Source: Chloroflexota bacterium (GTDB taxonomy: Bacteria > Chloroflexota > Anaerolineae > Ardenticatenales > Ardenticatenaceae). From it: 9,470 bases of DNA. This document shows, one piece after another, positions 3 through 4,820 of this stretch. Positions within the stretch are counted from its first letter, which is position 1; each line of letters starts with the position of its first letter. The position numbers and the translations under genes were made by a program. The stretch covers positions 1-9,470 of the forward strand of contig DOUV01000144.1 of the NCBI GenBank assembly GCA_003520455.1. Direction: 5' to 3'. The notes under the pieces were generated by a model. It worked only from the letters and a program-made list of their open reading frames with translations. It did not search any database and had not been told where the DNA came from.

Positions 3-1478
3 CCCGTGCGCGGTGGCACCCTTCGCGCCGCCAGCCGGGTTCATAAGGTTACCCACCCGGCCCAGTTTTCCTGGGTCTCCCCGTCCAACCAGTTGCGCCA
101 GGTCGCCGAGTACCTGACGGTCACCGATGGGGAGAACATCACCCATCCGCTCCTCCTCGAAAGCTGGGAGGCGAGCGACGACTTGAAAACCTGGACACTC
201 AACCTGCGCAAGGGGATCAAGTTCAACAACGGCGACGACTTCAGCGCCGACGATGTCGTCTTCACGATGGGCCAGTGGCTCGACGAAGATGTGGGCTCGT
301 CGATTCTCGGGCTGATGTCCTATATCAGCCCGGACAACATCGAGAAGAAGGACGATCACACCGTGGTGCTGCACCTGGACCGGGCGGAGATTGGCGTGCC
401 GGAGCATCTCTTCCACTATCCGGCCCTGGTCCTCAACCATCGGACCTTCGAGGGCGACTTTATCAAAGCGCCCCACGGAACCGGGCCTTACACTCTGGAG
501 CAGTACAGCGAGGGCGAGCGCGTCCTCCTCAAGCGCCGGGACGACTACTGGCAGATGGGGGCCGACGGCAAATCGTTGCCGTATCTGGACTCGATGGAAT
601 TCGTTGACATGGGTGATGAGACCTCGGCCTGGATCGCGGCGATCCAGGCGGGCGAGGTTGATTACCTCGACCTCGGTGATAACCCCAGCCCCGACGTCTA
701 TCTGGCCCTGAAAGACGATTCCAACATCAATGTGGTCGGCATTCCCACCGCCCGCGTTCGCGTGCTGCGCATGCGCGTGGACATCGATCCGTGGAGCGAC
801 AACCGCGTGCGCCAGGCCCTCAAGCTGTGCCAGAACCGGGAGAAGATCCTCAACCTGGCCTTCTTCAGTCAGGGCGTTCAGGGGCAGGACTTCCACGTCT
901 ATCCCAGGCACCCCGAATACTGCGAGCAGCCCATCCCCGAATACGACCCAGAGAAGGCCAGGCAACTCCTGGCCGATGCCGGCTATGCCGATGGTCTCGA
1001 TGTGAACCTGGCCGTCGGCTCTGGGTGGTCGGACGTCGTCCGCTACGGGGAGATCCTCAAGGAAGACGCCGCTCCCGCGGGTTTTAATATCACCCTCGAC
1101 ACCATGCCCAACAACCAATACTGGGAGCAGTGGACCGAGGTGGACCTTGGCGTCACGCCGTGGACCCACCGCCCGCTGGGCACGATGGTGCTCAATCTCG
1201 CCTACGTTGGAGATGCGGACGGCAAACCTGTCGCCTGGAATGAGACCCGCTGGATCGACGATGAATTCTCAGAGCTGCTGACCCAGGCGAACGGGACGCT
1301 GGACGTGGACAAGCGCCGCGAGATCTTCTGCAAACTGGAGAAGATCCAGATGGATCGCGGCCCCATCGGCATTGCCTGGTGGGCGAACGCCTGGACCGTC
1401 TCCAGGAAGAGCGTGAAGGACGTCGAGCCGCACCCGACCGCGTACATGCTTTTCAATGAGGTCTCAAAAGAGGCGTAG
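3..1478 (+). CDS. ABC transporter extracellular substrate-binding protein, family 5 (DppA/OppA-like), 5'-truncated
   Basis: This is the solute receptor of a peptide/opine/nickel-type ABC importer; it captures the substrate outside the membrane and delivers it to the two permeases encoded next. The frame is open to the window edge. The first visible residues (P-V-RGGTLR) match the stretch that normally follows the signal peptide of this family, so the signal sequence and real start lie upstream and the GTG at 6 is not the start. Counting from that GTG, the visible part has the family signature [14 protein letters not shown] (about 73-86), the GTGPYTL motif followed by a K-R-R-x-D-Y-W element (158-182), an RVRQAL helix (267-272) and a C-terminal R-W-x-D-x-E-F-S-x-L-L region (about 415-425). 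About 490 residues are visible, close to a full mature protein. The stop is TAG at 1476-1478. The substrate cannot be read from the sequence; 'peptide' would be a default label only. Confidence 0.93.
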
Positions 1479-1580: not shown

Positions 1581-3689
1581 GTGGCGAAGTTTATTGTACG
1601 GCGGTTGTTGCTCATGCTCTTGACGATGTTCCTCGTCTCGGTCGCCGTCTTCCTGATCACTGAGGCAGCCCCCGGAAACGTTGCTCGCAACGTTTTGGGC
1701 GTGCACATCACGCCCGCGCAGGAAGCCTCTTTTCTGGCCCAGACCGGACTGGACCAGCCAATCTACGAGCGCTATCTCAACTGGCTTGCCGGGAGCGACT
1801 GGCGGGCCGCCCGCCAGATCGGCATGCCCGTCAGGCAGATCACCACCAAGGATGGCTTCAAAGAGTGGTGGGCTGTGGAGAAGGATGGCACGCTGGTTAC
1901 CTGGAAACAGGAGGGCGACGACCTGATCATCCGCCAGCGCCAGCCCGACGGCAGCGCGGAAGAGAGCCCGGACAACGAACGCTGGCAAGTCAAAGAGCCG
2001 GCCAGCGAAATCGGCCGTCTGACGACCTATCGAGATCAGGTGCTCACCAATCCTCAACTGACTGAGCCTGACCGGCAGGCCATCCTGCAGGAGCTGGATC
2101 GGATCCTGGCGATCCTTCAAGGGAAGGATCAAAGCCAGGCAGCACTCGCAGCCGCCCTGGCGGGGCCGGAGAGCGCCCTGGAAGCCATGATGGATCCCGG
2201 CAGTGCCAAGGAGAAGGAGCTTCTCCAGAAGGCGGCTCAAGATGTCTCCAGGGATGACCTGCTCCAGGCGGTGGTTCTCTCTCAAGAGCTGTCTGCGCCA
2301 TCGGCGGATCTCACGCCGAGCAATCGCCAGACGATGGCCCGGCGCCTGGGAAAGGCGGCTGATGTTGTTGAAAGTGCCGACCCTGCCGTCGCCGCGCAGT
2401 TGCGCCGAGCGGCTGATAGCTTGAAAGCTGGCGATACGGCCGCAGCTCAAGAGGTTCTCACGGGCGCAGCCTCTGCGCTGAACCGGCTCACCGGCTCGCT
2501 GGCCGTCCTTTCCACGGCGTTGAGGGCCGGGGATTATCAACAGGCGGTGACCGTTTTACGGGACCTGTCCGACCCGGCGCACGGACCTCTGGATGCTGCT
2601 CAGCTGGCGGTGGTCCCGGGTCTGCTCGAACAGGCCGGGAAAGCGCTGAAGGATGCCAGCGCCGAACTTGGTGATCAGTTGCGGCAGGCTGCCGACAGCC
2701 TCGAGGCAGGGGACAGCCGCGCAGCCAAAGACGCTCTCGGCCGGGCGGCCGCGGTTCTGGCTGAAACGGGCGAGAGTATCGCCCGCAGTGATGCGGCCAG
2801 GCAGGCGCGCGTCATCAGAACCTTTTGGGGGGTGGACACGCAGAATCATGCGGTCAAGTGGGAGAAAGGCGCGGGCAAAGAAGTGTGGGTGTTGAAAGCC
2901 GGCGTCGGCTGGAAGGCCGCGAGTGGGGGCCCGGTGGAATTCATCCCACTCCAGAAGGGGCTGCTGCGCGGCGATCCGGGACTCTCCCTGCGCACCGGCC
3001 GTCCCGTGGCCGATTTGCTGTTCACGCGCCTGCGCAACTCGCTGGTCCTGGCCGGCATCGCCTTCATTCTCGTGATGCCGTTGGCCCTCGTCCTCGGTTT
3101 GATCGCGGGGATCAACGAAGGCAAGCCGCTGGACCGGATTCTCTCGATCGGCGGCATGATGTTCTCCGTGACGCCGGAGTTTACCACCGGGATTTTCTTG
3201 ATCCTGATCTTCGCGTTTTGGCTGAAGCTCGTGCCGGGGGCGACGGTATTTGGCGAGAAGGCCCCCTGGTCGAGGCCGGACATGCTGGTCTTGCCGGTGC
3301 TGACGCTGACCCTGATCGAGTTGGGCTACGTTCTTCGGATCACTCGGGCCAGCATGGTGGAGGTCATGAAGGCGCCCTACATTCGCACCGCGTTCCTGAA
3401 GGGGCTGCCCTACTGGCACGTCGTCACCAAACACGCCGTGCGCAACGCGTTGATGGCTCCCATCACCATCATCATGTTGCACGTCAACTGGCTGTTGGGT
3501 GGCATTGTCGTGGTGGAGGTGATCTTCGGCTACCCCGGCCTGGGCGGCTATCTGCTTGAATCGGCGCTGTTCAAGGACTTCAACGCCATCGAGGCCGGCG
3601 CGATCATTCTCGTCACAGTTGCGGTCGGAACGCAATTGCTGGCCGATATCATCTACACGTTTCTGAATCCTCGGATCCGGTACGGTTAG
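1581..3689 (+). CDS. ABC transporter permease, DppB/OppB-like, with a ~390-residue extracytoplasmic insertion
   Basis: This is one of the two membrane subunits of the importer. It is 702 residues, whereas the family is usually about 310-340. The N-terminus is normal: helix 1 at about 8-28, then APGN (30-33) and TGLDQPIYERYLNWL (55-69). The family normally continues directly into a G-D-L-G-x-S element; here that element (GDPGLS, 464-469) follows residues 72-461, which are extra. From there everything is normal: RLRNSLVLA (483-491), helices at about 484-510, 521-549, 568-587, 621-648 and 670-695, the cytoplasmic coupling (EAA-type) loop around 589-620 with FLKGLP (605-610), and the ending NPRIRYG. 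Removing the insert leaves about 312 residues, the normal size. The insert holds two W-x-V...V-x-W units (about 96-136 and 415-446) around an alanine-rich helical region (about 150-405) with a duplicated 29-residue segment. With the N-terminus inside, the insert lies outside the membrane. The frame is uninterrupted, so this is not an assembly artefact of two genes. Confidence 0.93.
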   Translation: MAKFIVRRLLLMLLTMFLVSVAVFLITEAAPGNVARNVLGVHITPAQEASFLAQTGLDQPIYERYLNWLAGSDWRAARQIGMPVRQITTKDGFKEWWAVEKDGTLVTWKQEGDDLIIRQRQPDGSAEESPDNERWQVKEPASEIGRLTTYRDQVLTNPQLTEPDRQAILQELDRILAILQGKDQSQAALAAALAGPESALEAMMDPGSAKEKELLQKAAQDVSRDDLLQAVVLSQELSAPSADLTPSNRQTMARRLGKAADVVESADPAVAAQLRRAADSLKAGDTAAAQEVLTGAASALNRLTGSLAVLSTALRAGDYQQAVTVLRDLSDPAHGPLDAAQLAVVPGLLEQAGKALKDASAELGDQLRQAADSLEAGDSRAAKDALGRAAAVLAETGESIARSDAARQARVIRTFWGVDTQNHAVKWEKGAGKEVWVLKAGVGWKAASGGPVEFIPLQKGLLRGDPGLSLRTGRPVADLLFTRLRNSLVLAGIAFILVMPLALVLGLIAGINEGKPLDRILSIGGMMFSVTPEFTTGIFLILIFAFWLKLVPGATVFGEKAPWSRPDMLVLPVLTLTLIELGYVLRITRASMVEVMKAPYIRTAFLKGLPYWHVVTKHAVRNALMAPITIIMLHVNWLLGGIVVVEVIFGYPGLGGYLLESALFKDFNAIEAGAIILVTVAVGTQLLADIIYTFLNPRIRYG

Positions 3690-3862
3690 CGTGAAACGTG
3701 GCCTTCTTGCCGGGATGGAGGTTGGGTCGCGACAGAACATATCCCAGATACGCGCCGGTTGAGCTATGAGGAACCGAGCTCTTCGCGGCGCCACGTTGCG
3801 CGTTTCGGAAAGGCTCCAATGCGAGCGATCGATGCCCCATCAGTCGTTCCGTCGCAACGATC

Positions 3863-3871
3863 AGGAGGGAG
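3863..3871 (+). promoter_or_regulatory. Ribosome binding site supporting the GTG start of the second permease
   Basis: AGGAGGGAG is the strongest Shine-Dalgarno-like stretch upstream of the second permease and lies 10 bases before the GTG at 3882. A weaker competitor, GGAAAGG at 3807-3813, lies 5 bases before the in-frame ATG at 3819. Confidence 0.55.
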
Positions 3872-3881
3872 AAGTACCGCA

Positions 3882-4820
3882 GTGGCAGTCAGTGAACAAA
3901 CCGTGGAACGAACCATCCCGGTCGCGGTGGCCCGCCCGTCGCGCCTCCGTCGCGTCTGGGATACGCTTGCGCTCATCTTTGAGTCGAAGACCGCCACCGT
4001 CGGCCTGATCATCGTCCTCTTCTGGGTCCTGGTCGCGGTGCTGGCACCGCTCCTGACTCCCTACAGTCCGACCGACCAGGATATCCACGCCCAGAATCAA
4101 GGCCCGTCGAGCGTCCATCCACTAGGAACCGACAGCCTGGGGCGGGACCTCTGGTCACGGATCATCTATGGCGACCGAGTTGTCCTGGTCTACTTGCCGG
4201 TGACGGAGACGTTCTGGTTGCCGGGCGGCACCGCCCTGTGGGGGGTCTTTCTCGGCCTGGTCGCGGGCGCGACTCTCGGCTTGATGGGCGGTTATCTCGG
4301 GGGGTGGGTCGATGAGGTGATCATGCGGGTCCTGGACGCGATGATGGCCTTTCCAGTGATTCTTCTCTACATGATCATCATCGCTGCTGTTGGGGCCTCG
4401 GCGATCAACGTCGTGATGGCCATCGCCATCGTCGGGATGCCCGGGATCGCGCGCCTGGTGCGGAGCCTGGCGCTGGATATCCGCACCCGCGACTACATCC
4501 GGGCTGCCGAGACGCGGGGTGAGAGCCCCTGGCACATCATGTTCGTGGAGATTCTGCCCAACGCGCGCGGTCCGATCATCGTCGATGCTATGCTGCGGGT
4601 GGGCTACGCGATCTTCGCCATGGGAACCCTGGGCTTCCTGGGGCTAGGGCTTCCGCCGCCCTCCCCCGACTGGGGGAGTATGGTCGCCAAAGGCCGGCAG
4701 TTCATCCTGGCCGGCAGTCCGTGGGAGGCGCTGTGGCCGTCGGTGGCTATCGCGTCCCTGGTCGTGGGGCTCAATCTGTTCGCCGATGGTCTGCGTGAAG
4801 AATCCCTCCGGTACCAGTAG
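3882..4820 (+). CDS. ABC transporter permease, DppC/OppC-like
   Basis: This is the second membrane subunit of the importer, 312 residues from the GTG start. Helix 1 is at about 37-58, followed by the family hallmark HPLGTDSLGRDLWSRIIYG (79-97), a helix at 118-138 ending GGYLGG (136-141), and helices at about 155-173, 175-193, 235-257 and 283-302. The cytoplasmic coupling loop is D-Y-I-R-A-A-E-T-R-G-E-S (204-215) followed by ILPN (224-227), and the end is DGLREESLRYQ. Between YGDRVVL and the second helix there are about 13 more residues than usual (about 103-116, V-Y-L-P-V-T-E-T-F-W-L-P-G-G). The frame is open back to a TTG at 3759, and an ATG at 3819 is possible. I prefer 3882 because of the stronger ribosome binding site and because the extra N-terminal residues look unlike family sequence and would push helix 1 unusually far in. 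Confidence 0.93.
   Translation: MAVSEQTVERTIPVAVARPSRLRRVWDTLALIFESKTATVGLIIVLFWVLVAVLAPLLTPYSPTDQDIHAQNQGPSSVHPLGTDSLGRDLWSRIIYGDRVVLVYLPVTETFWLPGGTALWGVFLGLVAGATLGLMGGYLGGWVDEVIMRVLDAMMAFPVILLYMIIIAAVGASAINVVMAIAIVGMPGIARLVRSLALDIRTRDYIRAAETRGESPWHIMFVEILPNARGPIIVDAMLRVGYAIFAMGTLGFLGLGLPPPSPDWGSMVAKGRQFILAGSPWEALWPSVAIASLVVGLNLFADGLREESLRYQ

Follow-up and report, generated by a model that had tools for sequence, protein, structure and literature searches.

Why would one permease of a peptide-type importer carry an extra folded region close to its outer entrance? The question is raised by a 9,470-nucleotide stretch of a Chloroflexota contig (DOUV01000144.1; here called the window), in which a DppB/OppB-type permease gene is interrupted, without loss of its reading frame, by a long insert. 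An earlier note on this DNA had described the insert as one large extracytoplasmic domain. We found that the insert is real. It looks like an addition to the importer that has not been studied before, and the importer itself may be one for methylated amines.

A long insert interrupts the permease

Pfam recognized the two ends of the permease, each above its gathering cutoff: the N-terminal permease domain at residues 1 to 71 (PF19300, 37.3 bits against 23.8) and BPD_transp_1 at residues 503 to 700 (PF00528, 97.9 bits against 26.4). When the protein was compared with Escherichia coli DppB by phmmer, residues 3 to 71 aligned with DppB residues 3 to 72, and the alignment resumed at window residue 460, equivalent to DppB 72. 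Thus, 388 residues are extra relative to E. coli DppB, all at a single point between helix alpha3 and transmembrane helix 2 (TM2), and 314 residues remain. The earlier note had put the extra part at about 390 residues (72 to 461), within two residues of what we found, and the usual length without it at about 312. Outside the insert the permease keeps the DppB/OppB fold, and in the structure model (all models were of single chains) its three-dimensional fold matches that of solved DppB/OppB proteins. The permease scored below the curated cutoff of every NCBIfam equivalog compared (Opp1B to Opp4B, NikB, DppB, OppB, GsiC, SapB, and YejB); the best was Opp2B, at 201.2 bits against a cutoff of 350.

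A database search with the permease gave 1402 matches at an E value of ≤1e-5, of which 120 were listed in detail. All 120 covered 95 to 100% of the query, 116 were 690 to 710 residues long, and the five with an organism in their name were labeled Ardenticatenaceae or Anaerolineae. One near-identical protein, P0002, sits on a 10.4-Mb contig labeled Ardenticatenaceae. Because of this contig and the near-complete span of the listed matches, misassembly was ruled out as the source of the insert, and the insert is confirmed as real. The model alignment, A2, comprised 60 of the 120 listed matches and 14 others.

Since the permease is homologous to DppB, the insert is expected to lie in the TM1-TM2 region on the extracytoplasmic side, which is where the earlier note had placed it. 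We detected no TM segment within the insert (maximum Kyte-Doolittle value, 1.2). It begins directly after alpha3 and adjoins the equivalent of the DppB scoop motif. In E. coli DppB, the scoop motif (the stretch between TM1 and alpha3) reaches into the cleft of DppA, the receptor, and has been proposed to close off the outward cavity (PMC12136057). This fixes the site more closely than the earlier note had done.

The insert is predicted to hold two nested domains

The relatives of the permease fall into long forms like that of the window and short forms of about 431 residues. Short forms align to window residues 1 to 139 and about 412 to 702 and are without residues of about 140 to 410; four of them, from Desulfobacterota-type and SAR324 genomes, were compared and are 69 to 74% identical to the window permease over the aligned part. 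In short forms the insert is reduced to a pair of Trp-rich pieces that flank the gap. Since only this central part is missing from them, the insert of the long form is, in the models, a ten-strand beta domain split by a helical domain of 270 residues; both are predicted to fold, and both show conservation among uncultured Chloroflexota. The earlier note was therefore right about an extra region that is predicted to be folded, and its single domain resolves into two, the helical one nested within the beta one. The beta domain is common to short and long forms, and the helical domain is optional.

No described domain matched the insert at a curated cutoff in Pfam, NCBIfam, or a further search. 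The earlier note had named a match to a described domain, or a prediction of a cytoplasmic or disordered insert, as outcomes that would speak against it; neither occurred, and the only homologue found, which is of the helical part, belongs to an undescribed family. The beta domain faintly resembles tectonin and propeller lectins rich in aromatic residues, with no trustworthy match. Six aromatic residues (W33, W72, F82, W83, W94, and Y121 in the numbering of alignment A6) are invariant in all 29 aligned beta domains. An internal two-fold repeat was considered and dropped, as the register fits yet the hhalign probability was only 13.

The searches that we made found no relative of the beta domain outside this permease. 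The beta region gave 809 matches at an E value of ≤1e-5 among 850 candidates. No stand-alone beta domain was seen among 43 matches: 30 carried PF19300, 12 had no Pfam label, and one carried PF00230. Twelve of the 13 without PF19300 continue into the permease segment RGDPG, and the other, P0145, ends just before it. Three of the 13 (P0142, P0158, and P0163) have foreign ends and resemble chimeric assemblies.

The helical domain has relatives in a Chloroflexota membrane protein

The helical domain was modeled with confidence mostly between 82 and 95 in ten-residue blocks (75 to 79 in two). It is less conserved than the TM part, with a mean identity of 38% versus 80% across 16 long forms. A weak similarity to the SbsC spectrin-like repeat scored 20.2 bits, below the gathering cutoff of 26. 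A search with the helical domain matched 37 genomes of the class to which the L001 genome belongs, 27 of them by weak matches only. Loci were taken for 20 of the 28 weak matches, and the helical-domain profile hit one frame in each of the 20; 20 column-shuffled profiles and a reversed profile hit nothing in the same loci. Against an alignment of nine proteins of this weak-match family, the helical domain gave a collinear hhalign match (probability, 99.6; E value, 3.4e-24). Judged by these comparisons, the helical domain is homologous to part of an uncharacterized Chloroflexota membrane protein, relative to which the permease version holds about 80 residues more.

The membrane proteins have hydrophobic N-terminal segments, a conserved C terminus (consensus YFSSLEP), and, in several members, a Gly/Gln-rich linker. 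Family members with the helical domain were seen at L091:7394-9082 and L092:7314-9350. At both of these loci MoxR AAA and DUF58 genes adjoin the membrane protein gene, and at one there is also a BatA/VWA gene.

The beta domain occurs across phyla; long forms were seen only in Chloroflexota

Among 396 genomes sampled from the class of the L001 genome, 10 encode the long permease, nine in frames of 702 to 732 amino acids and one in a frame of 627 amino acids that sits near a contig end. In the phylum of that genome, Chloroflexota, short forms occurred in 12 of 400 sampled genomes, at 51 to 60% identity over the whole query length. The survey of these 400 genomes scored the four best candidates per genome; normal-length matches reached at most 46% identity, over the TM part only, and none of the close relatives found lacked the beta domain. 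In the phylum of the L007 genome, a beta-domain query matched 11 of 297 genomes, one match being partial. None of the 11 was a long form, with frames of up to 463 amino acids. Long forms were seen only in records labeled Chloroflexota or in genomes sampled from its phylum or class. The beta domain was found in Desulfobacterota-type, SAR324, and other Chloroflexota genomes, and further records bearing it are named Bipolaricaulota, Kouleothrix, and Dehalococcoidia. Two genomes carry both forms: G005, with a long-form operon (L099) and a short-form operon (L111), and G006.

We built a tree from 312 shared columns of 44 insert-bearing and 15 normal permeases, and the branch separating the two sets received support of 100/100. 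The 15 normal rows all come from the Chloroflexota phylum sample. The 44 others were chosen because they bear the insert, so the beta domain is present in all of them by selection. Besides the window, five of the listed database matches were included. The rows left outside the tree were the short forms L009 and L031, the long forms L054 (cut) and L055, the normal permeases L046 and L049 (tail filter), and the partial or N-containing L016 to L019 and L090. On this tree the long forms do not make up one clade, an arrangement rejected at a p-AU (approximately unbiased test) of 1e-4, and the Desulfobacterota-type short forms fall inside the long-form part. Some branches are weak. All 16 helical domains formed one group against 20 domains of the membrane protein family (support, 92/84; 95% of bootstrap trees). 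Because the 16 group together, repeated independent gains are disfavored and independent recruitment is the less likely history. The helical domain probably entered once in Chloroflexota and was afterward lost, cleanly, several times.

The operon suggests methylated amines as a possible substrate

The permease gene lies among transporter genes, with a methyltransferase gene nearby (Table 1). The set of receptor, B permease, C permease, and fused D-F ATPase recurs across 20 loci from Chloroflexota and Desulfobacterota-type genomes. Exceptions are L099, L110, and L111, where no receptor was found beside B; L100, whose receptor is distant; and L101, where the fused ATPase was not found beside B. 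MttB homologues stood near the transporter in 13 of the 20 loci and in 2 of 20 control loci (Fisher p = 0.0008), and homologues of the CBS-ACT protein in 10 of 20 against 0 of 20 (Fisher p = 0.0004). The 20 control loci surrounded normal-length DppB genes in seven of the carrier genomes; some were short (7 kb), with 329 kb in total against 359 kb for the insert-bearing loci. No CBS-ACT homologue was found in four Desulfobacterota-type/SAR324 loci (L101, L103, L104, and L105), all of which have the beta domain.

Table 1. Features of the window; residue numbers refer to the permease
Feature	Position	Strand	Basis or remark
DppB/OppB-type permease with nested, putatively extracytoplasmic insert	1581..3689	+	one open frame, GTG start, 702 amino acids
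Equivalent of the scoop motif, residues 31-58 (two helices, 31-39 and 45-55, joined by a loop)	1671..1754	+	model helices; alignment to E. coli DppB
Helix alpha3, residues 61-71, last part in common with E. coli DppB before the insert	1761..1793	+	model (helix 61-70); alignment
Whole insert, residues 72-459	1794..2957	+	phmmer junction with E. coli DppB
Beta domain, first half, residues ~82-137, five predicted strands	1824..1991	+	model strands 84-130; conserved in short forms
Nested helical domain, splitting the beta domain, residues ~140-408, 13 predicted helices	1998..2804	+	model; absent from short forms; homology
Beta domain, second half, residues ~411-458, five predicted strands	2811..2954	+	model, less confident (blocks 67-90); conserved in short forms
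Family 5 substrate-binding protein (receptor), 5' end cut by the window	3..1478	+	PF00496, E value 2.9e-77
Second permease, OppC/DppC type	3759..4820	+	PF00528, PF12911; start uncertain, TTG 3759 or ATG 3819
Fused DppD-DppF-type ATPase, 699 amino acids	4945..7044	+	two ABC_tran and two oligo_HPY stretches
CBS-CBS-ACT-like protein, 215 amino acids	7165..7812	+	homologue in 10/20 loci
MttB-superfamily corrinoid methyltransferase, 515 amino acids	7886..9433	+	PF06253, E value 7.8e-122

In E. coli DppA, residues R383 and D436 hold the ends of the peptide (PMC12136057). In the window receptor both are replaced, R383 by S and D436 by R, and a W-x-H-R-P motif stands at the place of D436 in all 16 aligned receptors, the window included. 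The window methyltransferase scored 477.8 bits with TIGR02369, below the cutoff of 525, and its gene has no in-frame stop and therefore no TAG (pyrrolysine) read-through. Known MttB-superfamily members act on compounds of the methylated-amine kind. Because of the MttB neighbors and a receptor without the dipeptide-holding residues of DppA, a reasonable inference is that the importer supplies the neighboring MttB-type enzyme with its substrate, which would be a methylated amine, a quaternary amine, or something related.

Several loci (L096, L098, L103, L105, and L106) have more than one MttB homologue close to the transporter. Other neighbors include a thiamine pyrophosphate (TPP)-dependent ferredoxin oxidoreductase, an N-formylglutamate amidohydrolase, and flavin adenine dinucleotide (FAD)-dependent oxidoreductases (L093:13023-14807, L094:7289-8179, and L005:85-2918). 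By eye, the receptors at L094:94-1818 and L001:2854-4143 begin with similar stretches, HP..P.L...G.I.RREF, that resemble a twin-arginine signal, and that of L094 has a lipobox-like Cys.

What the insert might do

Taken together, these data are best accommodated by a tentative reading to which we assign a probability of roughly 40%. The window protein would be the B permease of a type I ATP-binding cassette (ABC) importer made up of receptor, B, C, and fused D-F ATPase. The beta domain, typical of this permease subfamily, would stand beside the scoop motif, and the two together would surround the docked receptor as a fixed collar or lid. Such a collar would help to orient the receptor or would seal the outer cavity during hand-over of a small substrate, much as MalF-P2 does for the maltose importer. 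The helical domain would be an optional arm that contacts the Chloroflexota envelope or another membrane protein, and the imported methylated or quaternary amine, or related compound, would feed the MttB-type enzyme encoded nearby. The position of the insert next to the scoop makes a docking or lid function plausible; the DppB fold left intact around an insert that is predicted to fold and has no TM segments, the lack of close relatives without the beta domain, the absence of stand-alone beta domains from the matches, the recurring operon, its MttB and CBS neighbors, and the replaced receptor residues also speak for this reading. As the helical domain is evolutionarily dispensable and variable, an accessory contact is a more fitting role for it than a core step.

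Several observations weigh against this explanation. Sequence change is faster in the beta domain than in the TM part (mean identity, 46% versus 71% over 44 rows). Once the TM part was controlled for, the beta domain did not diverge in step with the receptor (partial r = −0.01, p = 0.51, n = 15; a weak test at 15 pairs, with receptor L100 excluded as it lies 7 kb from its permease), while the TM part kept a partial r of 0.85 with the receptor. The docking platform suggested in the earlier note thus gained no support from co-divergence. In 7 of the 20 loci the stretch covered holds no MttB gene, and the 20 loci are not independent, with two from one genome and several near-copies. Normal-length relatives, too, are without an E-R pair like E41/R42 of E. 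coli in the scoop loop; because they share this absence, we rejected the loss of dipeptide-mimicking scoop residues as a trait of the insert.

The missing co-divergence is in keeping with a rival reading, in which the insert, above all its helical domain, would be an envelope contact or spacer that binds the wall, the S-layer, or a membrane partner and places the importer while staying outside the transport cycle. The restriction of long forms to Chloroflexota records and samples, with none among the 11 matches from the L007 phylum, also agrees with such a contact, as do the fast divergence of the helical domain, its occurrence in a membrane protein beside MoxR/DUF58 genes, and the similarity to the SbsC repeat, which is weak and below cutoff. 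The beta domain, however, occurs in both Desulfobacterota-type and Chloroflexota genomes, whose envelopes differ, and the insertion site adjoins the scoop and is not a loop far from the entrance. We consider an envelope contact or spacer doubtful. It is less probable again that the insert is mere decoration, neutral and tolerated because the loop is permissive, and that drift has kept it. The helical domain has apparently been lost repeatedly with the gene retained, and the YejB and mycoplasma OppB profiles also have a longer loop here, yet the beta domain keeps invariant residues across several phyla, and no close relative seen in the sampled genomes is without it.

The invariant aromatics, the faint likeness to propeller lectins and tectonin, and the MttB linkage would also suit a second receptor, in which the beta domain binds the trimethylammonium group in an aromatic cage and either passes substrate on to the pore or concentrates it locally; we regard this as quite unlikely, slightly more so than drift. 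Least probable of all is a sensor of the substrate or the envelope state that signals via TM1/TM2 or to the CBS-ACT protein. That protein is a frequent neighbor, but no known sensor domain matched the insert, and the four Desulfobacterota-type/SAR324 loci, in which it was not found, retain the beta domain. There is also a broader proposal, which we hold to be improbable if a little less so than drift: the loci might represent an unrecognized peptide-type ABC importer subfamily for methylated-amine metabolism, in which the aromatic-rich outer beta domain would bind substrate or receptor at hand-over and the helical domain, which another membrane protein also has, would be exchangeable, insertable and removable without breaking the beta domain.

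Comparison with known systems

The earlier note knew of no characterized peptide-type permease of this kind; a literature search on DppB/OppB extracytoplasmic domains, and on MttB with ABC or peptide transporters, likewise found no title describing one among the open-license papers listed. In the solved DppB structures of E. coli and Mycobacterium tuberculosis, the site holds the scoop and a short helix only; here, a clade comprising hundreds of database proteins carries a whole domain there, sometimes with a second inside it. Its natural series (no domain, beta, beta plus helical) offers a test of what the permease outer face does when the receptor docks and the cavity is sealed. Should methylated amines prove to be what is imported, uncultured Chloroflexota and Desulfobacterota would have in this system a way to take up compounds for MttB-type metabolism.

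The closest known relatives are DppB of E. coli, in DppABCDF (8z1v and others), and DppB of M. tuberculosis (8wd9). They have the same TM fold as the window permease, the N-terminal 71 residues with scoop and alpha3, and the YIRTA..KGL coupling region, but no extra residues where the window permease has 388. E. coli DppA differs from the window receptor in the R383/D436 pair that holds dipeptides. In YejB and mycoplasma OppB the same loop is longer, with the profile resuming at position 109 (residue 460) and position 163 (residue 472), respectively, whereas those of Opp1B, Opp2B, Opp3B, Opp4B, NikB, GsiC, and E. coli OppB resume at 61 to 76. Their extensions are much smaller than the insert, and a profile search detected no similarity to it. 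The Chloroflexota membrane protein (L091 and L092) carries a homologous, collinear helical domain, but it is without about 80 residues of that domain and is not a permease. The nearest functional parallel is MalF-P2 of MalFGK2, where one permease subunit likewise bears a folded part on the extracytoplasmic side. MalF belongs to another permease family and has another insertion point, and we found no sequence or fold link between P2 and the insert; P2 contacts the receptor MalE, and a comparable contact is what the beta domain may provide here.
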